DNA of 21,860 nucleotides from a virus. The notes under the pieces are model-generated. The model was not told the DNA's origin and ran no database searches. It was given only the letters and a program-made list of their open reading frames with translations. The first letter of the stretch is position 1. Every line of letters begins with the position of its first letter. The translations under genes were made by a program, and so were the position numbers. The DNA is taken from IMG/VR virus record IMGVR_UViG_3300031198_000009, positions 1 to 21,860 of that record; one strand, given 5' to 3'. Positions 98 to 13,737 of this stretch are shown one piece after another.

Positions 98-433
98 ATG
101 CCAAAGATCGAATTTATCGAGGACGCCGAATACGAAGTCGCGAACGAAGACGGGACCCGAAAGGCTACCAGAATCGCTAAGGGGACGATCCAGGACGTCA
201 ACGAAGCCACGGCTGCGCGGTGGGAACGTCGTGGTAAGGTGAAGCGGGTTATTTCCCGGATCGAGCACGCGATGAATGCCCCGGTGGCGCCAGCCGCACC
301 CGTTGCACCTGTCGCTCCACCAGCACCACCAGCCGCCAGTGTGCTCGCCGCGCCGGTAGCTCCGCCCGCGCCGGCACCAGAACCGGAGAAGCGTGGACCC
401 GGACGGCCGCCCAAGATACCGGGAAACGCATAA
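98..433 (+). CDS. small head-module protein with Pro/Ala tether and AT-hook-like C-terminus
   Basis: This is a 111-residue protein. I start it at ATG 98, with GGTGGG at 88-93 as ribosome-binding site, rather than at the TTG at 71. Residues 1-50 form a compact domain of the kind seen in small phage proteins next to capsid genes and in the FluMu/HI1506 N-terminal fold: a beta-rich start, then a segment like ATAARWERRGKVKRV. Residues about 66-100 are a low-complexity Pro/Ala/Val linker. The end, KRGPGRPPK, matches the GRP core of an AT-hook. A slippery G GGA AAC lies in phase four codons before the stop, so ribosomes probably also make a longer fusion with the next reading frame. The biochemical role is unknown. 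The position fits a capsid- or neck-associated protein. Confidence 0.75.
   Translation: MPKIEFIEDAEYEVANEDGTRKATRIAKGTIQDVNEATAARWERRGKVKRVISRIEHAMNAPVAPAAPVAPVAPPAPPAASVLAAPVAPPAPAPEPEKRGPGRPPKIPGNA
421..427 (+). other. predicted -1 ribosomal frameshift site (G GGA AAC)
   Basis: In the frame of the gene at 98 the codons read CCG GGA AAC GCA TAA, so positions 421-427 are an X XXY YYZ heptamer in the correct phase. Slipping back one base gives codons CGC ATA AGC and joins the frame of the next gene, which has no ATG, GTG or TTG before 499. The same heptamer occurs in phase in the tail chaperone gene (13537-13543), where frameshifting is expected. Predicted fusion: 110 plus 220 residues. Confidence 0.65.
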
Positions 434-446
434 GCGCGTCCGCACG

Positions 447-487
447 CACGCCAGCCGGCGAGCGAGACACGTTCCCGGACTGGCGTG
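447..487 (+). other. stem-loop downstream of the frameshift heptamer
   Basis: CACGCCAG at 447-454 pairs with CTGGCGTG at 480-487. Past a bulged A at 479, CCGG at 455-458 also pairs with CCGG at 475-478, giving 12 pairs around a 16-nt loop. It starts 19 nt after the heptamer, further than the usual 5-9 nt. A small GCGT/ACGC hairpin at 436-447 is nearer. It could stimulate slippage or slow initiation at TTG 499. Confidence 0.45.
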
Positions 488-498
488 GGGAAACCGTC

Positions 499-1089
499 TT
501 GGTTCTCGGCGCTGGTATGTCGGCGAAGACGGTGGCCGATACGCTCCGGCCGGGAGCGGTGCGGGTGATCGCGATAAACCGGTCATTCGAATTGATGCCA
601 TCGGCCGAAGTCCTTTACGCGGCCGATTCAGGTTTCTGGCGCGCGTACCCGCGCGCACGCAAGTTCGATGGTTGGCGGTTCTGCGCCGATGATCACATTC
701 GTTATTTGGACTCAGGCGTCTACCCTGTGACCATTGCGAAGGGTCCGACAAAACTTAGGCTAACAGAAATGATCAGGCAGCCGGTCGGCACCGTCGGTTA
801 TGGTGGCAATTCAGGATTTCAGGCGGTTAATCTTGCGGCGCAGTTTGGGGCGTCTAAGATATTGCTATGTCTGGATTATTGCGGGGCGCACTGGCATCCG
901 GACCATGGGCCGGGACTTCGCAATCCAAGTGCTTTTGAATTTAAGAAATGGGCGAACGACCTCGACCGGCAAGCTGGAATTCTAAGATCTTGGGGCATTG
1001 AAGTCTTAAACGTCGCACGAAATAGTATTTTGAGAGCTTACCCTTATGCCGACTGCGGTTTGTTTAATAAGAACGAGTGTGCATTATAG
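499..1089 (+). CDS. Rossmann-type enzyme, phage 'norphogenetic'/MptE-like group, probably the frameshift partner of the upstream gene
   Basis: From TTG 499 the product is 196 residues. The real N-terminus probably lies upstream. The open frame encodes FPDWRGETVLVLGAGMS across the TTG, and GETVLVLGAG is a complete first Rossmann strand and glycine loop, which TTG initiation would shorten. Later hallmarks are YGGNSGFQAVNLA (about 101-113), GASKILLCLDY (117-127) and HWHPDH (131-136). In my memory these match phage proteins related to the MptE/DUF115 group, which use nucleotide or nucleotide-sugar-like substrates. The 3' end overlaps the first glycosyltransferase by 44 nt. Weak initiation at TTG 499 (GTGGGG upstream) remains possible. 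Exact reaction unknown. Confidence 0.75.
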   Translation: MVLGAGMSAKTVADTLRPGAVRVIAINRSFELMPSAEVLYAADSGFWRAYPRARKFDGWRFCADDHIRYLDSGVYPVTIAKGPTKLRLTEMIRQPVGTVGYGGNSGFQAVNLAAQFGASKILLCLDYCGAHWHPDHGPGLRNPSAFEFKKWANDLDRQAGILRSWGIEVLNVARNSILRAYPYADCGLFNKNECAL

Positions 1090-1834
1090 GCACGAAGCTT
1101 TTATAAAAGGGCTCGCGGCCGCCGGTTACATCGTAACTACCAAACCGCTTAGGAAGATCGACCGCGACGACATTCTTGTTATCTGGAATCGCGGCAGTCA
1201 ATTTCAGTATGAAGCGCGGCGGCATGACCATGCACATTCTCGGATCATCGTCGCCGAGAACGGCTATACGGACGCGGTCGACCAGGACGGCCATCAATGG
1301 TTCAGCCTGGCGATCGACCATCACAACGGGTGCGGTCGCTGGTATCAGGGGGAAACCGCGCGTTTTCCGCTCATGGGCCAAAATCTGAGGCCGTGGCGGG
1401 AGGAAGGCGGTTTCATCCTGGTGTTGCCGCAACGTGGCATCGGTGCGCCTGGCGTGGCCATGCCGGCGAGCTGGCCGCGCCTGATCGTCGAGCGTTTGAA
1501 GAAGGTGACGCGGCGCGAGATCCGGGTTCGGCCTCACCCTGGATTGAAGTCGCTCGCCAAGCCGCTGGCGCCCGCGCTCGCGGGATGTCACGCCGTGGTG
1601 ACTTGGGGTTCGGGCGCGGCGCTAAAATCCATCATGCTCGGCGTGCCGGCGTTTTATGAGCTTCCCGGCTGGATAGGTGCGCCGGCTGCGCGGTTCGGGT
1701 TCGACACGATCGAGAACCCGTTCCTCGGCGATCGCGTGCCGATGTTTGAGCGTATGGCATGGTCACAATGGACGGTCGCCGAGATCTCCAGCGGTGAACC
1801 TTTCCGGATGCTTATGAAGGTGCCCAAGAAATGA
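1046..1834 (+). CDS. GT-B-like glycosyltransferase, paralog 1 of 3
   Basis: A 262-residue protein related to the products at 1831 and 2777. Shared landmarks: a central strand plus glycine turn VAENGY (69-74), an IRVRPHPG segment (159-166), and VVTWGSGAALKSIMLGVP (184-201). The last is typical of the nucleotide-sugar side of GT-B and capsule-synthesis-type enzymes. It ends with the MAWSQWTVAEI segment that all three share. I start at ATG 1046 (GAGAG at 1032-1036), overlapping the previous gene, because the N-terminus then aligns with its paralogs. It likely transfers a sugar in the cytoplasm. Donor and acceptor cannot be read from the sequence. It lacks a full second Rossmann domain by length, so it may be a reduced fold. 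Confidence 0.7.
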   Translation: MPTAVCLIRTSVHYRHEAFIKGLAAAGYIVTTKPLRKIDRDDILVIWNRGSQFQYEARRHDHAHSRIIVAENGYTDAVDQDGHQWFSLAIDHHNGCGRWYQGETARFPLMGQNLRPWREEGGFILVLPQRGIGAPGVAMPASWPRLIVERLKKVTRREIRVRPHPGLKSLAKPLAPALAGCHAVVTWGSGAALKSIMLGVPAFYELPGWIGAPAARFGFDTIENPFLGDRVPMFERMAWSQWTVAEISSGEPFRMLMKVPKK

Positions 1835-2658
1835 AAGTCGCTCTTTACGCCTTCCCGCAAAACGGCCGTGCCAACCATATCGCGGATGCCATGCAGATAG
1901 GGTTGACCGTGCATGGCATCCGCGCGCCAATCTTAAGGCGGTGGACCGGTGACGTGGTCGCCGATGTTGTCATCGCATACGGCTGGAACCACGAAGCGGT
2001 TTTTACCGCATATCGGCGAGCGGGCGGCCATTTCGCTTATTTCGACATGGGTTATTTCAACCGCAAGCCGGTCGGCGACAAGGGCGGCGCGCGGGAGGGA
2101 CATCACCGGCTTTCGGTGGATGGTTGGGACACCGCCGACACCATGGCGCGCGGCATGCCGGCCGATCGGTGGGATGATCTGGGAATCGAGGTCGCGCCGA
2201 ACCGCACCGGCGAGCAGCCGGGCGCGGTGCTGGTCGCCGGCATGTCTGGCAAGGCGGCCGGAACCCATGGGTTCAAGCCGCTAGAGTGGGAACTTCGCAC
2301 GGTTGCCCAGATCAAGAAAGAATTTCCCACGGTCGAGGTGATCTATCGACCCAAGCCGGCGAGCTTGGACGCGATCGAGCCGATTGCCGATGTTCTTAAG
2401 CGCGTTGGCATGATCGTCACCCATCATTCAAACGTCGCGGTCGATGGCTTGGTTGCGGCGGTACCGTCATGGGCGGCGAAGGGTGTCGGCAAAATGGTGT
2501 CGGTGCCGTCGATGCTCGACGCGGTCGCGCAGCGCGCGCCGGTACTGTCGCTCGACGAACGCCGGGCCCTGCTCGCCGATGTCGCTTATGCGCAATGGGC
2601 GCCGTCGGAGATGCGCTCCGGCGCGGCCTGGGAACATATCCGGAGGATCATCGAGTGA
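1831..2658 (+). CDS. GT-B-like glycosyltransferase, paralog 2 of 3
   Basis: 275 residues, starting at an ATGA overlap with the previous gene (GAAGGTG upstream as ribosome-binding site). It shares the family layout: YFDMGYF (70-76), EVIYRPKPAS (169-178), IVTHHSNVAVDGLVAAVP (195-212) and VAYAQWAPSEM near the end. Relative to paralog 1 the loop before the C-terminal helix differs (THHSN instead of TWGSG). This suggests a different acceptor or donor, or lost activity. It is translationally coupled on both sides, so the paralogs are likely made in similar amounts. Confidence 0.7.
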   Translation: MKVALYAFPQNGRANHIADAMQIGLTVHGIRAPILRRWTGDVVADVVIAYGWNHEAVFTAYRRAGGHFAYFDMGYFNRKPVGDKGGAREGHHRLSVDGWDTADTMARGMPADRWDDLGIEVAPNRTGEQPGAVLVAGMSGKAAGTHGFKPLEWELRTVAQIKKEFPTVEVIYRPKPASLDAIEPIADVLKRVGMIVTHHSNVAVDGLVAAVPSWAAKGVGKMVSVPSMLDAVAQRAPVLSLDERRALLADVAYAQWAPSEMRSGAAWEHIRRIIE

Positions 2659-2777
2659 GGTGGTGGCTTGGTCGGCTATGGATGTGGTTTCGCGGTGATC
2701 GTGGATGCGGCGGTGAGGGGTTCACCCTCGACAAGCAGAATCTTCCGGTTCCGTGTTTTAAACGAGGGTGTCACTGA
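2655..2777 (+). CDS. 40-residue coupled small protein, Cys/Trp-rich (hypothetical)
   Basis: This fills the gap between two glycosyltransferase genes exactly. GTG 2655 overlaps the upstream stop (GTGA), and its own TGA (2775-2777) overlaps the next ATG (TGATG). A strong GGAGG lies at 2642-2646, 8 nt before the GTG. The product begins with a basic Trp-rich stretch (MRWWLGRLWMWF) and ends with three cysteines and a final His (GCGG, PCFKRGCH), perhaps a small metal site or a membrane-surface peptide. No family recognised. The case rests on ribosome-binding site and junctions rather than on homology. Confidence 0.55.
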   Translation: MRWWLGRLWMWFRGDRGCGGEGFTLDKQNLPVPCFKRGCH

Positions 2778-3637
2778 TGAAGTTCGTTTTCTACATCGCG
2801 GAAGGCAAGTCGCGCGAAGCACCCCTTTGCGAAGCTTGGGTGAAAGGGTGCCGCATAACTGGCGATCATGTCACGGTCGCGCCGAACAGGGGGAACCCTA
2901 TCCCGGCTGATGTCGCGATTATGGTCGGGCTCAAGTCGATCGTGCTGCGTGAAGCCTGCGTCGCGGCCGGTCAACGGGTCCTGATCTTCGACAAAGGATA
3001 TGATCGCCGGGATGATTGGTGGCGCATGGCGATCGACGCGCACCAGCCGACTGACTATCTCGGCAAAATCCCGCGCGACTACGCGCGTGCGGCCGCGCAA
3101 GGATGGAACCCAAAACCATGGCGTCAACCGCACCCCGCTTCCCCTGTGATCATCGCGGGCGGTGGCCGTAAATATTACATCACGCATGATCTTCCGGAGC
3201 CGGCCGAATATGTCGCCGAGATTGTGCGTGATATTCGTGCGGCAGGATGCACGCGCAAGATTTGGTATCGTCCCAAGCCTTCGATGTCCGACGTGGTACC
3301 AGTTGCGGGAACGACCTTGTCTCGGCATAAATCAATTTACGAGATCTTGGACGATGCACATGCGCTGATCACTTACGGCTCGAATGCTTGCTTTGAGGCG
3401 ATGCTTGCCGGCGTGCCGTCGATCGTGCTCGGCGACGCGATCGCGGGTCCCATATCGTCGCGCCAGATCGACGACATAGAGGACCCGCTACTTGCACCAG
3501 ACGGGGGGCGTCTATCGCTGCTTGCCAGTCTAGCTTACTGTCAATTTCGCGCAAGTGAGATCGCGAGCGGATGGGGCGTCAATGAAATTAAAACGCAATT
3601 ACGCGAAGTTGTACCGGGAACATCACGCGACATATGA
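2777..3637 (+). CDS. GT-B-like glycosyltransferase, paralog 3 of 3
   Basis: 286 residues from ATG 2777, preceded by GAGGG at 2764-2768. The GTG at 2768 is in frame but poorly placed. Family landmarks: LIFDKGYD (69-76) followed by a Trp-rich WWRMAID, KIWYRPKP (161-168), LITYGSNACFEAMLAGVP (197-214) and LAYCQFRASEI. The THDLPEPAEYVAEIV region fits a helix of the nucleotide-binding half. The last 56 nt overlap the start of the methyltransferase at 3582. The C-terminus runs about 12 residues past the end of its paralogs into that overlap, which suggests the downstream gene was joined here by recombination. Function is inferred by family. Confidence 0.7.
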   Translation: MKFVFYIAEGKSREAPLCEAWVKGCRITGDHVTVAPNRGNPIPADVAIMVGLKSIVLREACVAAGQRVLIFDKGYDRRDDWWRMAIDAHQPTDYLGKIPRDYARAAAQGWNPKPWRQPHPASPVIIAGGGRKYYITHDLPEPAEYVAEIVRDIRAAGCTRKIWYRPKPSMSDVVPVAGTTLSRHKSIYEILDDAHALITYGSNACFEAMLAGVPSIVLGDAIAGPISSRQIDDIEDPLLAPDGGRLSLLASLAYCQFRASEIASGWGVNEIKTQLREVVPGTSRDI

Positions 3638-4109
3638 AAAACATTTCTCTGGTAAAGTAAGTCAGGCACAAATCAGAGAAATAAGAAAATTAGTCGAGTG
3701 GTCGAAACCTGATCGATTGCTAGATTATGGATCTGGTAAAGGCTACCAATACTTAGAAAAACGGATTCATGATCAATGGGGCGGCCTCCTTCCTTATTGC
3801 TATGATCCGGGTGTTCTACAGATCGGCAATAAACCAGACGGTACATTCGGCGGTGTCATCTGTACCGACGTCATGGAACACATTGACCCGGACGATGTCG
3901 ACATGATCCTTGCCGACATTTTCGGGTCTTTGCATCAGACCGGACCGGTGTTCGCTTATTTTCACATCAGCACCAGGCTTGCCGGAAAGGTGTTCGACAA
4001 CGGCGAAAACGTTCACCTCACCGTGCAACCGTCGAGTTGGTGGGATGCCAAATTGAATCGTTTCGAGACGCGGCCGGATCTCATCATACGGGCGACCTAT
4101 GCAGATTAG
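3582..4109 (+). CDS. class I SAM-dependent methyltransferase, 'DYG' pair member 1
   Basis: 175 residues from ATG 3582 (GGGGC about 6 nt upstream). The GTG at 3555 is a weaker option. SAM-binding motif I is LLDYGSGKG (46-54). An acidic post-motif CYDPGV (73-78) and motif GVICTDVMEHID (91-102) follow, then a conserved NVHLTVQ..SWW (143-154). The paralog at 6442 has the same order. The first 180 bases are rich in A and T while the rest is GC-rich, so the gene looks like a mosaic. The short compact domain without a DNA- or rRNA-recognition insert fits a small-molecule or sugar methyltransferase. The substrate is unknown. Confidence 0.75.
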   Translation: MKLKRNYAKLYREHHATYEKHFSGKVSQAQIREIRKLVEWSKPDRLLDYGSGKGYQYLEKRIHDQWGGLLPYCYDPGVLQIGNKPDGTFGGVICTDVMEHIDPDDVDMILADIFGSLHQTGPVFAYFHISTRLAGKVFDNGENVHLTVQPSSWWDAKLNRFETRPDLIIRATYAD

Positions 4110-4905
4110 AATCGTCAGCACATGCAACGCGGAAGGCTGGAAACAGACCGGCCGGCGTATGGCGGAAACCTTCGTCGAGCACTGGCCGAAGCAGGCGACG
4201 CTTGAGGTTTACGCCGAAGGGTTCACGGTCGACGTTGCCGGCGTCGTCCAACGCCAGTTGCCGGAATGGTTTGAAGCTTGGAAGGTCCGGCACGCCGACA
4301 ACCCGGACGCGCACGGGCGGAACAAAGCGCGGTTCGGCAAGATCGACCTGCGTAAGGGCAAGCCGTATAGCTATCGCCGCGATTGCGTTCGGTTCGCGCA
4401 CAAGGTCGCGGCGCTGACTGACGCGGCCGCGCGGCCGCCGGCCGCGCCGGGTTGGTTGATCATGTGCGATGCGGACGTGGTGACACACGCAACCGTGACG
4501 CTCGATTGGCTGCAATCCCTGGTGAAGGACCCGGCGTTTTACATGGCCTGGCTCGATCGTGCGGCCTGGTATCCAGAATGCGGGTTCGTGGTGTTCAACG
4601 AGACGCACCCGGCGCATGTGCCGTTCATGACCTGGTTTCGCGACGTCTATGCGACCGATTACGTTTTCAAGTTCCAGGAAACCCACGACAGCTTTGTGTT
4701 GCAACAGCTTGTTGCGCGTGCGGTCGCGCGGGGGGACTTTCCTAAACCTGTCAGCCTATCCGGCAACGATATGGCGCGGCGGTCGTCACATCCGTTCGTT
4801 TATTCTCGGCTGGCCGAACGTCTCGACCACGCCAAAGGGAAATTCAAAGCCGGCGGTCGCACGCCGCGCGGATACGTGAAGCGCGGTGAGGCGCATTGGC
4901 AATGA
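4099..4905 (+). CDS. GT-A-type glycosyltransferase with DxD motif
   Basis: 268 residues, overlapping the methyltransferase stop by 11 nt. It begins with a Rossmann-like strand IRIVSTC and carries LIMCDADVVTH, whose DAD at 124-126 is the probable metal and nucleotide-sugar site. YPECGFVVFN (158-167) and a QETHDSF segment follow (193-199), together the layout I know from phage GT-A enzymes. The DYRFD-like stretch around residues 90-100 (YSYRRDCVRFAHKV) precedes the DxD as usual. It probably transfers a hexose onto a phage or host acceptor in the cytoplasm. The next gene starts in its stop codon (ATGA). Confidence 0.75.
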   Translation: MQIRIVSTCNAEGWKQTGRRMAETFVEHWPKQATLEVYAEGFTVDVAGVVQRQLPEWFEAWKVRHADNPDAHGRNKARFGKIDLRKGKPYSYRRDCVRFAHKVAALTDAAARPPAAPGWLIMCDADVVTHATVTLDWLQSLVKDPAFYMAWLDRAAWYPECGFVVFNETHPAHVPFMTWFRDVYATDYVFKFQETHDSFVLQQLVARAVARGDFPKPVSLSGNDMARRSSHPFVYSRLAERLDHAKGKFKAGGRTPRGYVKRGEAHWQ

Positions 4906-5513
4906 AGTTTGTGGATTACGATCGGAAGATGCAGAAAATCCTTGCGGCACCCGAACCTTACCAGGGCGATCGGTTGGCGCGGGCATTGCCGTTCTGTCGT
5001 CAGCGTCGCCATGCGCTCGACGTGGGTGCAAACATTGGACTTTGGACGATTCAACTTGTCGCCGTCTTTGAGTGGATAACAGCTTTCGAACCGCATCCGG
5101 ATAGTGTTATCGCGCTACGCGAAAATGTCATCAATCGACCGTCGGTGAAGGTTTCGTCAGTTGCGATCGGCAATCTAAACGGGATTGCATATTTGGATAA
5201 CTTAAAACACCCGTTTGGTTCGCATATTTCACCGGCTGATGTGCGTGGTGAAGTTGAAATCGACATGCGGACTCTTGATGATTTTAAGTTGACGCAGGTC
5301 GACTTCATCAAAATTGATGTCGAGGGGTTCGAAACATTCGTCGTCGAGGGAGGCGAAGAAACAATTCGCCGCGACCGGCCGGTGATAGTGGTCGAGCAGA
5401 AACATGAAAGTCGGTATGGTTTGGAACAACGCGCCACTGTGACCATGCTAGAGAAGTGGGGCGCAACGGTCGAATGGAAGATTAAACACGATTTCTGTAT
5501 GAGGTGGAAATGA
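4902..5513 (+). CDS. FkbM-family methyltransferase, copy 1
   Basis: 203 residues from ATG 4902, which overlaps the preceding TGA (GTGAGG upstream). ALDVGANIGLW (38-48) is SAM motif I and AFEPHP (61-66) the acidic loop. VDFIKIDVEGFE (133-144) and RPVIVVEQK (159-167) are the FkbM signature. FkbM enzymes typically O-methylate hydroxyls on sugars or polyketides, so methylation of a transferred sugar is the natural reading next to glycosyltransferases. It is closely similar to residues about 80-266 of the protein at 7223. Confidence 0.85.
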   Translation: MKFVDYDRKMQKILAAPEPYQGDRLARALPFCRQRRHALDVGANIGLWTIQLVAVFEWITAFEPHPDSVIALRENVINRPSVKVSSVAIGNLNGIAYLDNLKHPFGSHISPADVRGEVEIDMRTLDDFKLTQVDFIKIDVEGFETFVVEGGEETIRRDRPVIVVEQKHESRYGLEQRATVTMLEKWGATVEWKIKHDFCMRWK

Positions 5514-5845
5514 CTGTTCCATATACAAAAACTAACGTTGGTAACAAGTTGTTTACGATCGAATGGGATCTTGAATTGACTGACGCCATGGGTTCTGTTT
5601 CTGGAGATGTTTTCGAAGCTGTCGATTGTGAATTGCTTTCAATTCATGCGACAACTTTAGGTGTTGGTGCGTTGAGTAAGTTCAATTTCAGTAATAAAAA
5701 TTCCGCGAGTGTTTCGATAAATATTGGAAACCCTGACAACAATATAATTATCGAACCTCCGTTTCCTTCCGTTCGTTTCTACAGCCCAACTCTCGAAGAA
5801 GCGGAAGCGACTTTGGCTGTTGCTCTGTTGTTCAAGGAAATCTAA
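5510..5845 (+). CDS. AT-rich, beta-structured probable virion protein (hypothetical)
   Basis: 111 residues from ATG 5510, overlapping the FkbM stop (ATGA), with GAGGTGG upstream. The sequence alternates hydrophobic and polar residues with many Asn, Ser and Thr, and it has no catalytic motif. That is usual for small decoration or fibre-associated proteins. Codon use is clearly richer in A and T than the genes before it, and this composition continues through the next two genes. It is followed after 3 nt by a methyltransferase. The pairing of a virion-like protein with a methyltransferase recurs at 10742-11986. No family recognised. Confidence 0.6.
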   Translation: MTVPYTKTNVGNKLFTIEWDLELTDAMGSVSGDVFEAVDCELLSIHATTLGVGALSKFNFSNKNSASVSINIGNPDNNIIIEPPFPSVRFYSPTLEEAEATLAVALLFKEI

Positions 5846-5848
5846 AAC

Positions 5849-6442
5849 ATGATAGTTTATCCGCGTGTTGTCGTCGAACGTATTGGTAAAGTAATTGGTA
5901 ACACGCGGGTAGACCAAGCGACCATTCAGTTTGAATGTATGAAGCCTGTTATTGAAAAACTTGCACCACATTCGCTTTTAGATTTGGGTTGCGGTTGGGC
6001 AATCATCGATATTTTCATTGCTCAACATGCGCCGGTTACTGAAATCCATCTGGTTGATGGTACAGGCGACGGTACTGTGGAAAAGCGGTCCGGTTTCAAG
6101 GATGATACCAAGGCTTGGAATGATGTTCGGTTCGGCGCGGCGATCGTGAGGGAGAACCTTGGTCATTCGGTGGAAGTGTTCGAACATTTCTCAGAACCTG
6201 AGAAGATTAATACTCAAGTTGATTTGATTATTTCCTGTCGTTCTTGGGGTCATCATTACCCGATTTCCATTTATTCCGAAACCGTGATGCGTTGTGTTAA
6301 GCCGGGTGGTTTTGTAATTACGGATATACGGACAAATACCGACGGATTAGAACAACTTAAGAAAATGGGTCTGGAGATCGTCGAACAAATACCTGACAAA
6401 TCTTCTAAGTGTACCCGTTGGCTGCTTAAGGATATGAGATAA
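5849..6442 (+). CDS. class I SAM-dependent methyltransferase, 'SWGHHYP' family member 1
   Basis: 197 residues, ATG 5849 with AAGGA at 5834-5838. SLLDLGCGWA (42-51) is SAM motif I and IHLVDGTGDG (66-75) the acidic strand. A conserved WNDVRFGAAIVRENL (90-104) follows, then ISCRSWGHHYPISIY (128-142) and a KPGG turn. Two further copies lie at 10167 and 10742 and share every motif. The SWGxHYP block takes the place of the usual motif IV and probably forms the acceptor pocket. The gene is AT-rich, unlike its GC-rich paralogs, so the copies did not arise by recent local duplication. Confidence 0.75.
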   Translation: MIVYPRVVVERIGKVIGNTRVDQATIQFECMKPVIEKLAPHSLLDLGCGWAIIDIFIAQHAPVTEIHLVDGTGDGTVEKRSGFKDDTKAWNDVRFGAAIVRENLGHSVEVFEHFSEPEKINTQVDLIISCRSWGHHYPISIYSETVMRCVKPGGFVITDIRTNTDGLEQLKKMGLEIVEQIPDKSSKCTRWLLKDMR

Positions 6443-6990
6443 TGCCTAAACCGTTTCGTTATGACGACCTGGTTTCCCCTGGTTATTGCGAACTACTACA
6501 TGAAATGCATCAGTCGATGCCATGGGGAAACAAAGGTTATAAGTACGGTAATGACATTATTGAATTTATGAGTTCGCTTGGTGATGAAGGCGGACAAATG
6601 TCGATAATTGATTATGGTTGCGGACAAGCGACTTTAATTGAACATTATCCGGATTTGAATATTCGGTGTTATGATCCTGGTGTTATTGAATTTTCAGATA
6701 TGCCGGAGCCTGCGGACCTTGTGATTTGCACGGATGTTCTAGAGCATATCGAACCGGAGCTTTTATATAATGTTCTCCGGCATATAGCCGAGCTTGCACA
6801 GATGGGAATTTATTTGCACATCGCGACGAAGCCGGCGAAGCAACAGCTTCCCGATGGGCGAAACGCGCATCTGATTGTTCAAGGTCTGGAATGGTGGCGC
6901 GATAAGCTCGCGACAATTTCGGATCATTGGCAGATCCGGGACATGATTGAGGGTTCGAAGTCTTTGACTTTTTGGTTAGTGAGGAACTGA
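6442..6990 (+). CDS. class I SAM-dependent methyltransferase, 'DYG' pair member 2
   Basis: 182 residues, starting in the TAATG junction. IIDYGCGQA (55-63), RCYDPGV (75-81), LVICTDVLEHIEP (93-105) and NAHLIVQGLEWWRDKL (141-156) match the protein at 3582 motif for motif. The first half of the gene is AT-rich and the last third more GC-rich, again suggesting recombination. An in-phase G GGA AAC at 6525-6531 leads to a stop within four codons after slippage and is probably chance. Confidence 0.75.
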   Translation: MPKPFRYDDLVSPGYCELLHEMHQSMPWGNKGYKYGNDIIEFMSSLGDEGGQMSIIDYGCGQATLIEHYPDLNIRCYDPGVIEFSDMPEPADLVICTDVLEHIEPELLYNVLRHIAELAQMGIYLHIATKPAKQQLPDGRNAHLIVQGLEWWRDKLATISDHWQIRDMIEGSKSLTFWLVRN

Positions 6991-7226
6991 TGAAACACGC
7001 GCGCCCAGACTATGACCGCATTCAAGATCCGGCCGGGCTCATACCGGACGATGAACCCGTTTTCCTGGTCCGTGGTTCCGATGCGGTCGCCGCGCGGACA
7101 GTTCGTTTTTGGGCGAACGAGGCGGAAGCCAAGGGCGCGGCGCCGAACATCGTCGAGGCTGCTCGCCGGCAAGCCGAGCTTATGGACGCTTGGCCGATTC
7201 ACAAGGTTCCGGACATGCCGGCATGA
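6990..7226 (+). CDS. small conserved phage protein with RIQDP..IPxDEPVFL motif
   Basis: 78 residues from ATG 6990, with GAGGA at 6980-6984 and a TGATG junction. I prefer it to the upstream start at 6972. The pattern RIQDPAGLIPDDEPVFLVRG, then VRFWANEAEAKGAAPNIVEAA, then a basic/aromatic end is one I have seen in small proteins of many phage genomes. These are usually left as hypothetical and often sit near such enzyme clusters. No catalytic residues are obvious. It may be a regulator or adaptor of the neighbouring enzymes. That role is a guess. Confidence 0.7.
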   Translation: MKHARPDYDRIQDPAGLIPDDEPVFLVRGSDAVAARTVRFWANEAEAKGAAPNIVEAARRQAELMDAWPIHKVPDMPA

Positions 7227-8023
7227 GCACTTGGATGTGTCCGAAATGTGGGTTCGTGCAAGGCTACCTGACCTTGCGTGCGCGTGACGGCGCGATCGGT
7301 GAGTCGCGCGGACCGGAAATTAAGTTGTGCCCAAACGATGATACGGAGCTTTATGAAATGCGCATAGTCGAAGGAATTTCCTTACCTTTGGGGGATACCC
7401 ATTTCGCCGAGCATCTTGCAAAGGGTCCGGCATTCGAAGGCAAGGGAACCTATCAGTTCAGCAAGATCGAGCGCGCGTTAGAAGTGGCGACCAGGCGCGG
7501 GCTTGCACTCGACGTGGGTGCGCATATCGGGCTTTGGTCGCGCGTGCTCGCGCATTCGTTCGCGCGGGTGATCGCCTTTGAGCCATTGCCCGCGTTGCAT
7601 CCGCATTTTCGGATCAACACGGAAGATTGCCCCAACGTCAAGCTGATCGAATGCGCGGTCGGCGCCGAGTGCGGCGAGCTGGACATCGTCACGGTGGCCG
7701 ATAATTCCGGCAATGGTCACGTCGCACCGGTGGGTGTCTCCGGCGCGTGCATCGCGCATGTCGAGGCGGTGACGATCGACAGCCTGAATTTGCACGGCGT
7801 TGACTTCATCAAGATCGACGTCGAGGGGTTCGAGCTTCCTGTTGTCCAGGGCGGCGCGCGCACGATTCAACGTGATCGGCCGGTCATGGTGGTCGAGCAG
7901 AAACCCAACAATGCGGAGCGCTACGGGCGCGGCCAGTTCGCGGCGGTCGACCTGCTCAAGGCATGGGGATATGTGGTCGCCTGGGAAAAGGCGGGCGATT
8001 TCTGTCTGACGTGGGCGGCATGA
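7223..8023 (+). CDS. FkbM-family methyltransferase, copy 2, with N-terminal zinc-ribbon-like segment
   Basis: 266 residues from ATG 7223 (ATGA junction). Residues 6-9 are CPKC and 36-39 CPND, a degenerate zinc-ribbon with three cysteines and an Asp. RIVEGISLPLGDTHFAEHL (47-65) is the usual start of this phage FkbM group, so the ribbon is an added module. ATG codons at 7351 and 7358 are possible internal starts. Methyltransferase motifs: ALDVGAHIGLW (95-105), AFEPLP, VDFIKIDVEGFE (193-204), RPVMVVEQKP. It likely O-methylates a sugar. The ribbon may dock it to a partner. Confidence 0.85.
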   Translation: MSTWMCPKCGFVQGYLTLRARDGAIGESRGPEIKLCPNDDTELYEMRIVEGISLPLGDTHFAEHLAKGPAFEGKGTYQFSKIERALEVATRRGLALDVGAHIGLWSRVLAHSFARVIAFEPLPALHPHFRINTEDCPNVKLIECAVGAECGELDIVTVADNSGNGHVAPVGVSGACIAHVEAVTIDSLNLHGVDFIKIDVEGFELPVVQGGARTIQRDRPVMVVEQKPNNAERYGRGQFAAVDLLKAWGYVVAWEKAGDFCLTWAA

Positions 8024-9819: not shown

Positions 9820-10170
9820 ATGCCAGCACAGTTGCAAGCCGGCGACCTCGACCGGCGGATTACCCTCCAGCGCGCCACAGTGACCACGAGCACGCCGTAT
9901 AACGAACCGGTGGAGGTGTGGGGCGACATCGGCACAATATCGGCGCAGCGGGCTGACGCGAGCGCGGCGGAAGGCTATCGAGCGGCTGAGGTGGGTGCAC
10001 AGATTTCGACCCGGTTCACGGTCCGCTATTGGAGCCTCACGCGGGGCTTGACGCCGAAAGACCGTATCAGCTTCGAAGGCAAGTTGTACAATATCACCGC
10101 TACGCGCGAGCGGGTCGGCACAACGCGGCAATGGATCGAGATCGACGCCGTAGCGAGTGCGGACAAATGA
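9820..10170 (+). CDS. head-tail adaptor / head closure protein
   Basis: 116 residues, ATG 9820 with AGGGGGA just upstream. GDLDRRITLQRAT near the start, EVWGDIGTISAQR, TRFTVRYW and LTPKDRISFEGKLYNIT are the hallmarks of the SPP1 gp16 / phage head-tail joining family. It would sit between connector ring and tail and close the DNA exit channel. The methyltransferase cargo that follows starts inside its stop codon. Confidence 0.88.
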   Translation: MPAQLQAGDLDRRITLQRATVTTSTPYNEPVEVWGDIGTISAQRADASAAEGYRAAEVGAQISTRFTVRYWSLTRGLTPKDRISFEGKLYNITATRERVGTTRQWIEIDAVASADK

Positions 10171-10751
10171 TATTTCCTGATGAGGTCGCGGCATTCCTTC
10201 TGAAAAACAAAACCAATGACGTCTTTGCACGTCAGATTGCCCGCGCACACAAGCAAGCCGGAACGCTCGCCGAGCTGTTCACCGAATATCGGCCGCGTAC
10301 TCTGCTCGATATCGGGTGCGGCCTGGGTATGGCGGCGATCGTGCTTGCGGTTCGGTTCAACCTCGACGCAATCCACCTACTCGACGGTGACGGATCCGGC
10401 GATATCTTCCATGACTATCGCGCGGGTGCGGCTCCGTGGAATGATGTTCGCCTTGCGGGCGCGCTCGCGCGCGCCAACCTACCACCCGCATGTGCGGTGA
10501 TCGAGCACCCGTCGGACCCTGATTTGACGATACCGGTCGACGTCATCGTGTCGTTCAAATCGTGGGGAACGCATTATCCGATCTCGACATATCTGCCGCT
10601 CGCCGCGCGCTCGCTCAAACCGGGCGGCCTGATCGCGGTTGACCTGCATCCGTCGGACCGGCTGCATGGCGAGCAGGCGAGCGAGATCCAAGCCGCCGGC
10701 TTCGACCTGGTCGAACAGTACGGCCGCCGACACGTTTTTCAATGTCGATAG
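10167..10751 (+). CDS. class I SAM-dependent methyltransferase, 'SWGHHYP' family member 2
   Basis: 194 residues from ATG 10167 (ATGA). TLLDIGCGLG (45-54), IHLLDGDGSG (69-78), WNDVRLAGALARANL (91-105), VSFKSWGTHYPISTY (128-142) and LKPGGL repeat the layout of the protein at 5849. The block reads SWGTHYP here, so His-4 of SWGHHYP is not invariant while the HYP triad is. The gene is GC-rich like the structural genes. It overlaps the next paralog by 10 nt. Confidence 0.78.
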   Translation: MIFPDEVAAFLLKNKTNDVFARQIARAHKQAGTLAELFTEYRPRTLLDIGCGLGMAAIVLAVRFNLDAIHLLDGDGSGDIFHDYRAGAAPWNDVRLAGALARANLPPACAVIEHPSDPDLTIPVDVIVSFKSWGTHYPISTYLPLAARSLKPGGLIAVDLHPSDRLHGEQASEIQAAGFDLVEQYGRRHVFQCR

Positions 10752-11347
10752 TTTGGCCCGACCAGGTCCGCGACTATCTGATCCGGACCGGGCGGGATCT
10801 CGATTACAGTTGCCCGCTGATCGAACTGGCGGCCGTGCAAAAGTTCGCCGCGCTCTGGCCAGTGCTCGCCGGCCGGCGGCCGCCGGAGTCGCTGCTCGAT
10901 ATCGGCTGCGGCCTGGCGCTGATCGATGTGCATCTCGCGCGCGCTTGGCCGGGCGTGCGTGTCCATCTGCTCGATGGCGACGGCACCGGCGCGCAGGATA
11001 GGGGCTTCAAGCAAACGATGACCGCGTGGGGTGACGTGGCGGCCGGCGCGGCGATGATGCGCGCGAACGTGCCGGCCTGTCCCCCTGTGACCATCCACGC
11101 GCCGCGTCCGTTTCACCTGGCGGTTGATCTGATCATTTCTTCGCGGTCGTGGGGCCATCATTATCCGGTTAGCGTATATGCCGAATCGGTGGTTCGGTCG
11201 CTCAATCCCGGTGGCCTGGTCGTGCTCGACATTCGTACCGGCACGTCGGGATTGACACAGCTTGCCGCGCTTGGTTTCGAGGTCGTTTGTCGGATACCTG
11301 ACCCGTCGGAAAAGTGTGGTAGATTCGCGCTCGAATATGCACCGTGA
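10742..11347 (+). CDS. class I SAM-dependent methyltransferase, 'SWGHHYP' family member 3
   Basis: 201 residues. SLLDIGCGLALIDVHLA (50-66), VHLLDGDGTG (74-83), WGDVAAGAAMMRANV (96-110) and ISSRSWGHHYPVSVY (132-146) place it nearer the protein at 5849 than its tandem neighbour. Both also share the DIRT.T.GL..L..LG..EV end. The tandem pair is therefore not a simple local duplication. It carries one copy of the repeated 12-mer CCCTGTGACCAT (11083-11094). Confidence 0.78.
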   Translation: MSIVWPDQVRDYLIRTGRDLDYSCPLIELAAVQKFAALWPVLAGRRPPESLLDIGCGLALIDVHLARAWPGVRVHLLDGDGTGAQDRGFKQTMTAWGDVAAGAAMMRANVPACPPVTIHAPRPFHLAVDLIISSRSWGHHYPVSVYAESVVRSLNPGGLVVLDIRTGTSGLTQLAALGFEVVCRIPDPSEKCGRFALEYAP

Positions 11348-13195: not shown

Positions 13196-13594
13196 ATGTT
13201 TGAAGCAGTTGACCTAATTTGGGGTGAAGAAGTTTACACGATCGCACCGGATAAGATCCTCGGTGCGATCGCAATCATAGAAGAACATTATACATTTCAA
13301 GATCTCGCTGACGCCAACCAGAAGCAAAAGCTTTCCCTTGTTGGTCTCGCGCGTGCATATGGCGATGTGATGCGTTATGCTGGCGCGAAAATCACAGATG
13401 AACAAGTGTATGTCGGCATGTTTAGCGGCAACATGTCCAGCAACGTTCGTAATTCTGTTAACACTTTACTTGCCATGATGATTCCACCGTCTGTCATTGC
13501 TGCGGCCAATCAACCAGGGGCAGGAGGCGCGGCAAGGGGAAACCTAAAATCGTCAAAGGCGTCTATCAAGCGCTCGTCTGCACGGGGAAAATAG
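13196..13594 (+). CDS. tail assembly chaperone, short form
   Basis: 132 residues. The N-terminal half (VDLIWGEEVYTIAPDKILGAIAIIEEHY, then LVGLARAYGDVMRYAG and ITDEQVYVGMF) resembles the gp10/gp13-type chaperone of GTAs and siphoviruses, which binds the tape measure during assembly. The final 20 or so residues are basic and low in complexity, as expected for a short form whose function lies in the folded N-terminal part. A slippery G GGA AAC at 13537-13543 is in phase. Confidence 0.85.
   Translation: MFEAVDLIWGEEVYTIAPDKILGAIAIIEEHYTFQDLADANQKQKLSLVGLARAYGDVMRYAGAKITDEQVYVGMFSGNMSSNVRNSVNTLLAMMIPPSVIAAANQPGAGGAARGNLKSSKASIKRSSARGK
13537..13543 (+). other. -1 ribosomal frameshift site of the tail assembly chaperone
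   Basis: Codons read AGG GGA AAC CTA, placing G GGA AAC in slippery phase. After slipping, the next codons are CCT AAA ATC. A second heptamer, G GGA AAA at 13585-13591, sits directly before the TAG and leads into the same -1 frame. The first site is preferred because the residues it adds (VYQALVCTGKIAPSAFW) match the expected extension from its beginning. Confidence 0.85.
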
Positions 13595-13737
13595 CACCGT
13601 CCGCATTTTGGGCATTGCAACCGGGTGAGGTGTGGTGGTGGATAGAACACCTCAAACCGGCGCCGGACTATGCCGGCATGTCAGAGGATGAGGTAGCCGC
13701 GATCTATAGCGAGGCATATGGCGATGGCGACGACTAG
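13543..13737 (+). CDS. tail assembly chaperone, frameshift extension (long form)
   Basis: The -1 frame from 13543 runs to a TAG at 13735-13737 and adds 64 residues. These include KGVYQALVCTGKIAPSAFW, then LQPGEVWWWIEHL and MSEDEVAAIYSEAY. The G..AP.AFWAL.PGE pattern is the usual C-terminal domain of GTA/siphovirus chaperones. The long form would be about 180 residues, starting at 13196. It overlaps the tape measure start by 20 nt. This is the equivalent of lambda gpG and gpGT. Confidence 0.82.
   Translation, partial: PKIVKGVYQALVCTGKIAPSAFWALQPGEVWWWIEHLKPAPDYAGMSEDEVAAIYSEAYGDGDD

Follow-up and report, generated by a model that had tools for sequence, protein, structure and literature searches.

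How is an enzyme made when its reading frame offers no usable start codon? The question is raised by the viral record IMGVR_UViG_3300031198_000009 of IMG/VR, of which we analysed positions 1 to 21,860 (this whole stretch of 21,860 nucleotides is hereafter the window). Near its 5′ end a small gene of the head module overlaps the frame of a glycosyltransferase-like enzyme of the PmgO/phrog_4603 family. On the evidence of sequence alone, we consider it probable that a programmed -1 frameshift in the window fuses the post-capsid protein to this enzyme. Moreover, an enzyme without a usable start appears, from comparison of loci, to be made by such a slip in dozens of phages and prophages that are only distantly related.

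Layout of the overlap

Gene 1 (98–433, + strand) encodes a small post-capsid protein of the head module, whose 0-frame product of 111 aa has the C-terminus ...KIPGNA and stops at TAA 431–433. The 3′ end of the gene reads CCG GGA AAC GCA TAA and contains, one codon ahead of the stop, the heptamer G GGA AAC (421–427, + strand); it is in exact X XXY YYZ slippery phase, as an earlier note on this DNA had claimed. The -1 frame, open from 238 to 1089, runs unbroken into the enzyme reading frame (427–1089, + strand, -1 relative to gene 1), which encodes a Rossmann enzyme of the phrog_4603 family, with weaker MptE-like and GT42-like resemblances. The same note was also right that no ATG, GTG or TTG precedes the Rossmann strand; the first standard start in the enzyme frame is TTG 499–501 (+ strand), inside beta strand 1. 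Its estimate of about 330 residues for the -1 product agrees with the computed length of 330 aa, and its proposal that the enzyme is tethered through a Pro/Ala linker fits the order of an N-terminal domain of gene 1 followed by a Pro/Ala-rich disordered linker. The junction has to be amended: it had been given as IPG to KRISAS, and the residue is more likely Asn than Lys because AAC would be decoded before slippage, giving IPGN-RISAS. A strong RNA hairpin (447–488, + strand; z of -3.83 and -3.74 in two computations) begins 19 nt past the heptamer and is a possible stimulator.

The tail assembly chaperone gene (13196–13594) does hold the identical heptamer in phase, at 13537–13543 on the + strand, with a -1 extension that ends at TAG 13735–13737. 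This locus (13196–13737) is a textbook G/GT arrangement, the -1 extension beginning WWWIEHLKPAPDYAGMSEDEV. From the window alone a chance occurrence of the heptamer remains plausible and its presence is weak evidence, with GGGAAAC observed 6 times where 3.2 would be expected, a count that is reached in 10 of 100 shuffles. A sequencing error was considered and rejected; L001 carries the window sequence with 1 difference in 6086 bases and is identical here, and the layout is the same in L009, in ‘Tetraselmis’ virus S20 and in isolates. Paracoccus denitrificans DSM 413 and Ensifer sp. MPMI2T also have this layout.

Close relatives and alternative start sites

The nearest relative, L002, encodes an enzyme that is 94% identical. 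The end of its gene 1 reads ACG GAA AAA CCA TAG, in which there is no heptamer and only an in-phase A_AAA tetramer, and this sequence counts against a frameshift in the window. The -1 frame of L002 is open for no more than a few codons ahead of the stop, and only an ATA precedes its enzyme. Re-pairing of tRNA-Asn from AAC to AAA is not among the best bacterial slips, which also counts against the window site.

The window too has an ATA, unmentioned in the earlier note. It is the only near-cognate start codon (430–432, + strand) and overlaps the stop of gene 1 (ATAA). The enzyme could thus be a separate protein, with initiation at ATA 430 linked to the termination of gene 1 at the stop it overlaps, in the manner of ATGA overlaps, and with the purine run GGGAAA as a weak Shine-Dalgarno sequence. 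ATA likewise overlaps the stop in L002 and L009 (ATAG in both), L003 has ATG at that place, and many start-bearing relatives use ATGA overlaps. However, such an overlap is partly a by-product of a TAA or TAG stop preceded by A, and there is neither a stop overlap nor an ATA in S20, Psp6, L018, L049 and others; in-phase slippery sites are present in the first three. Nor does a start at ATA explain the in-phase heptamers of the family or the in-frame fusion of L061 described below. ATA is a very poor start codon. We therefore regard separate initiation as unlikely, while it remains the main rival in the window because the nearest relative lacks the heptamer.

Initiation at TTG 499 would yield a truncated enzyme; alternatively, the start has been lost and the gene is in decay. 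Both seem very improbable. TTG 499 is the only standard start in the frame, but it cuts beta strand 1 and is replaced by CTA in L002, and was rejected as a start. Decay is at odds with a coding sequence that is intact and 94% conserved between contigs, and that L001 confirms.

Further from the window, L009 (62% identity) reads GAC CCT TTG GCC CAA TAG, where C CCT TTG is in phase and the only candidate start is ATA. Start codons for the enzyme are found in L003 (ATG), L004 (GTG), L010 (ATG) and L013, a Bradyrhizobium plasmid phage (TTG), and three of these (L003, L004 and L010, with ATG or GTG) belong to the window's own clade, a further point against a frameshift here. The earlier note held that relatives with an independent start before the Rossmann strand would refute a frameshift. 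Such relatives do exist, but they are interleaved with start-less ones on the enzyme tree and therefore do not refute it. In L013 (1361–3021; Bradyrhizobium plasmid pUSDA31-2) and L085 the adjoining upstream gene encodes, or ends in, collagen-like GKDG repeats, and the enzyme begins at an overlapping TTG or GTG.

Phase of slippery motifs across the family

An alignment of related phages had been proposed to look for a conserved heptamer and an absent start codon; the two do recur together in many start-less relatives, though not in L002. Loci were taken from scans of viral and isolate collections and analysed by one script. A first genome scan gave no relatives, whereas a second scan with closer alignment did, and searches with full-length gene 1 were swamped by Pro/Ala patterns. 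Removal of near-copies at 85% identity left 112 non-redundant relatives. In 52 of these the enzyme has no start and overlaps gene 1, taken as the 0 frame, and the enzyme is always in the -1 frame. Of the remainder, 29 combine a start with a -1 neighbour, 30 have a start in some other arrangement, and 1 is an exception. An enzyme frame without any ATG, GTG or TTG and without a -1 upstream gene is found in L046 / L047 (2465–3139), an unexplained exception that counts against the frameshift reading.

Within the overlaps of the 52 start-less loci, XXXYYYZ motifs number 34 in the slippery phase, compared with 2 and 4 in the two others, and a chance origin of the heptamer was rejected for the family on this skew. 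The corresponding counts in start-bearing loci are 0 against 3 and 2. C CCT shows the same bias in the start-less loci (40 in the slippery phase, 1 and 4 in the others). In-phase heptamers are present in 31 of the 52 and C_CCU in 38, and the commonest slippery site among the relatives is C CCU UUN. C_CCU_UUN heptamers, as well as C_CCY and U_UUY tetramers, shift in E. coli (PMC4066793), and every one of the 52 loci has at least one member of the motif class that is shift-prone in this bacterium. Tetramers are common and each is weak evidence taken singly; the family argument rests on the phase skew and not on any one site. In the first set of 36 loci the count was 25 slippery against 8, at a rate 8.8 times the in-phase background inside the enzyme gene (p ~1e-10). 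Named isolates show the same pattern. Transcriptional slippage, or some other recoding route, could also restore the frame, and polymerase slippage does make similar fusions, but sites such as G GGA AAC and C CCU UUN lack the long A or T runs that the polymerase requires, and a motif held so strictly to one codon phase indicates the ribosome rather than the polymerase, leaving these routes scarcely credible.

Distant relatives show where the -1 frame becomes usable. In S20 (L014) gene 1 reads GAT GAT GAT GAC CCT TTG GGG; TGA stops follow one another in the -1 frame until the heptamer, and from exactly that point the frame is open and continues, without a start, into the enzyme, while gene 1 itself extends more than 50 codons past the heptamer. 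The -1 frame opens at the motif or 0–5 codons before it in S20, L018, L049, L051, L060, L135 and L151. S20 is recorded with an algal host; its head maturation protease, phage-type genes and assignment to Caudoviricetes mark it as a bacteriophage. Psp6 has the heptamer T TTT TTG and an enzyme without a start. In PMG1 and D3 the in-phase motif is C CCA AAG, which is very efficient in E. coli, and one upstream GTG is in frame with the enzyme. Both D3 and Psp6 are cultured phages. The orf7 of D3 has been annotated from an ATC codon. At 1192–1910 of the D3 locus (L159), gene 6.5 holds the in-phase C CCA AAG and orf7 lies in the -1 frame; judged from this layout, the real product may be a gp6.5–gp7 fusion.

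We did not find a conserved 3′ hairpin across the family (mean z -0.94). A strong hairpin follows the site in the window, S20, L035 and L110.

A natural in-frame fusion

In L061 the gene 1 part and the enzyme form a single in-frame ORF, from the ATG at 2306 to 3115, which sits between an HK97-type capsid gene and a head–tail adaptor gene (names judged from translations). Profile matches assign the N-terminus of this ORF to gene 1 (E 5e-5) and the remainder to the enzyme (E 2e-78). On a quick tree of the enzyme, the distribution of fused and start-bearing states needs 20 changes, at least 8 of which are forced by well-supported branches. On this sequence tree, then, the fused and separate-start states interconvert. 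A similar interconversion of states has been described for Ig-like extensions (PMC5009743).

The encoded proteins and their gene neighbourhood

The conserved N-terminal domain of gene 1 (98–262, + strand), its first 55 residues, was modelled with AF2 at pLDDT 84–88 as a beta-rich fold (bbbb-a-b), with the disordered linker following it. Among solved structures the best phage match is the C-terminal domain of lambda gpFI (2lsm; Foldseek prob 0.99, TMt 0.59, E 0.34). An E of 0.34 is not significant, and the predicted likeness to gpFI is a lead only. Gene 1 directly follows the major capsid gene in Psp6, PMG1 and D3; in L002 the order is protease, major capsid, a 168 aa ORF, gene 1 and enzyme.

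The enzyme is modelled as a Rossmann fold at pLDDT 91.7, and its residues 28–208 match the phrog_4603 profile (E 1e-26). MptE-like (PF01973) is matched at E<0.01 by 48 of 59 relatives; the Pfam cut-off is not met among those with scores listed (15–26 against 34.6 bits), and the enzyme of the window has no match to PF01973. The fold match to the Pasteurella sialyltransferase 9c08 is moderate (Foldseek TM 0.50, prob 0.97, E 0.013; catalytic residues were not compared), and no sequence match to solved sialyltransferases was found.

Several glycosyltransferase-like and methyltransferase-like ORFs lie downstream of the enzyme. They form a dense island within the head/connector module (1046–8023 and 10167–11347), which contains two FkbM, several class I and one weakly GT8-like ORF. 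The homologues in PAJU2 (gp10, L025) and in Klebsiella phage Eowyn (L118) were labelled ‘structural protein’ by their depositors, a label whose basis is unchecked and which hints at presence in the virion.

Proposed mechanism

Under a -1 frameshift, most ribosomes would terminate at 431 and release the 111-residue protein, while a fraction would slip at G GGA AAC (421–427) once Asn is in and resume at CGC, yielding 330 residues. The fusion would consist of a capsid-module domain, the Pro/Ala linker and the glycosyltransferase-like Rossmann enzyme, and slippage would keep the enzyme-bearing form scarce relative to the bare protein. The hairpin at 447–488 may assist the slip, despite its distance of 19 nt and its lack of conservation. 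For G_GGA_AAC there is a precedent in an archaeal tailed virus (PMC5009743). What can be read directly from the DNA, and it is this that favours the frameshift, is the phase and frame, an enzyme lacking any standard start, the conservation of the arrangement in other phages and the natural in-frame fusion. That slippage takes place in this host, and how often, is inferred. Binding of the small domain to the capsid or procapsid, by which each head would carry few enzymes, is likewise an inference, from gene position and a weak fold likeness and without binding data. We further infer that the enzyme and the sugar and methyl transferases encoded nearby act together on the virion, or on something it touches during assembly; the substrate is unknown. 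Tentatively, and with more doubt than confidence, we suggest a widespread but unrecognised class of phage heads, in which a few copies of a capsid-docked glycosyltransferase made only by frameshift would decorate the assembling virion by way of the adjacent sugar/methyl-transferase island, slippage fixing the number of enzymes per head.

Relation to known systems

Frameshifting in phage structural genes is known from tail chaperones and from Ig-like capsid extensions. The arrangement proposed here resembles lambda gpG/gpGT in that a small virion-assembly gene has, close to its end, an X XXY YYZ site at which a -1 slip extends a minority of the protein C-terminally, and in the window the two genes share a heptamer; it differs in adding an enzyme, in its head-module position and in the unrelated proteins involved. 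Slippage also gives a minority of head-protein copies a C-terminal domain in the Ig-like extensions (T3 gp10, Lactobacillus phage A2, Listeria phages; PMC5009743), and some relatives are fused in frame. Here the added domain is a Rossmann enzyme rather than an Ig-like fold, and its carrier is a small post-capsid protein rather than the major capsid protein. P1 PmgO, P7 HdmB and D3 Orf7 (phrog_4603, labelled alpha-2,3-sialyltransferase) belong to the same enzyme family by profile and tblastn; PmgO differs in having its own ATG, and D3 orf7 is annotated as separate, yet has the frameshift layout. Lambda gpFI is, like gene 1, a small protein adjoining the capsid gene with which a weak fold likeness is shared, but it carries no enzyme. 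We found no report in the open-access literature of an enzyme added to a phage structural protein by frameshift, the supplements of predicted frameshifts (Sharma 2014 / Antonov 2013 clusters) being unchecked.

If correct, our reading would extend the known uses of slippage in structural genes to a conserved frameshift of the head module whose extension is an enzyme. It would also explain the impossible or truncated start annotations of D3 orf7 and of the S20 and Psp6 homologues. Dozens of public genomes would miss the product, since annotators call two genes. Moreover, it leads to a testable proposal, that the amount of a modifying enzyme tethered to the virion is set by slippage.
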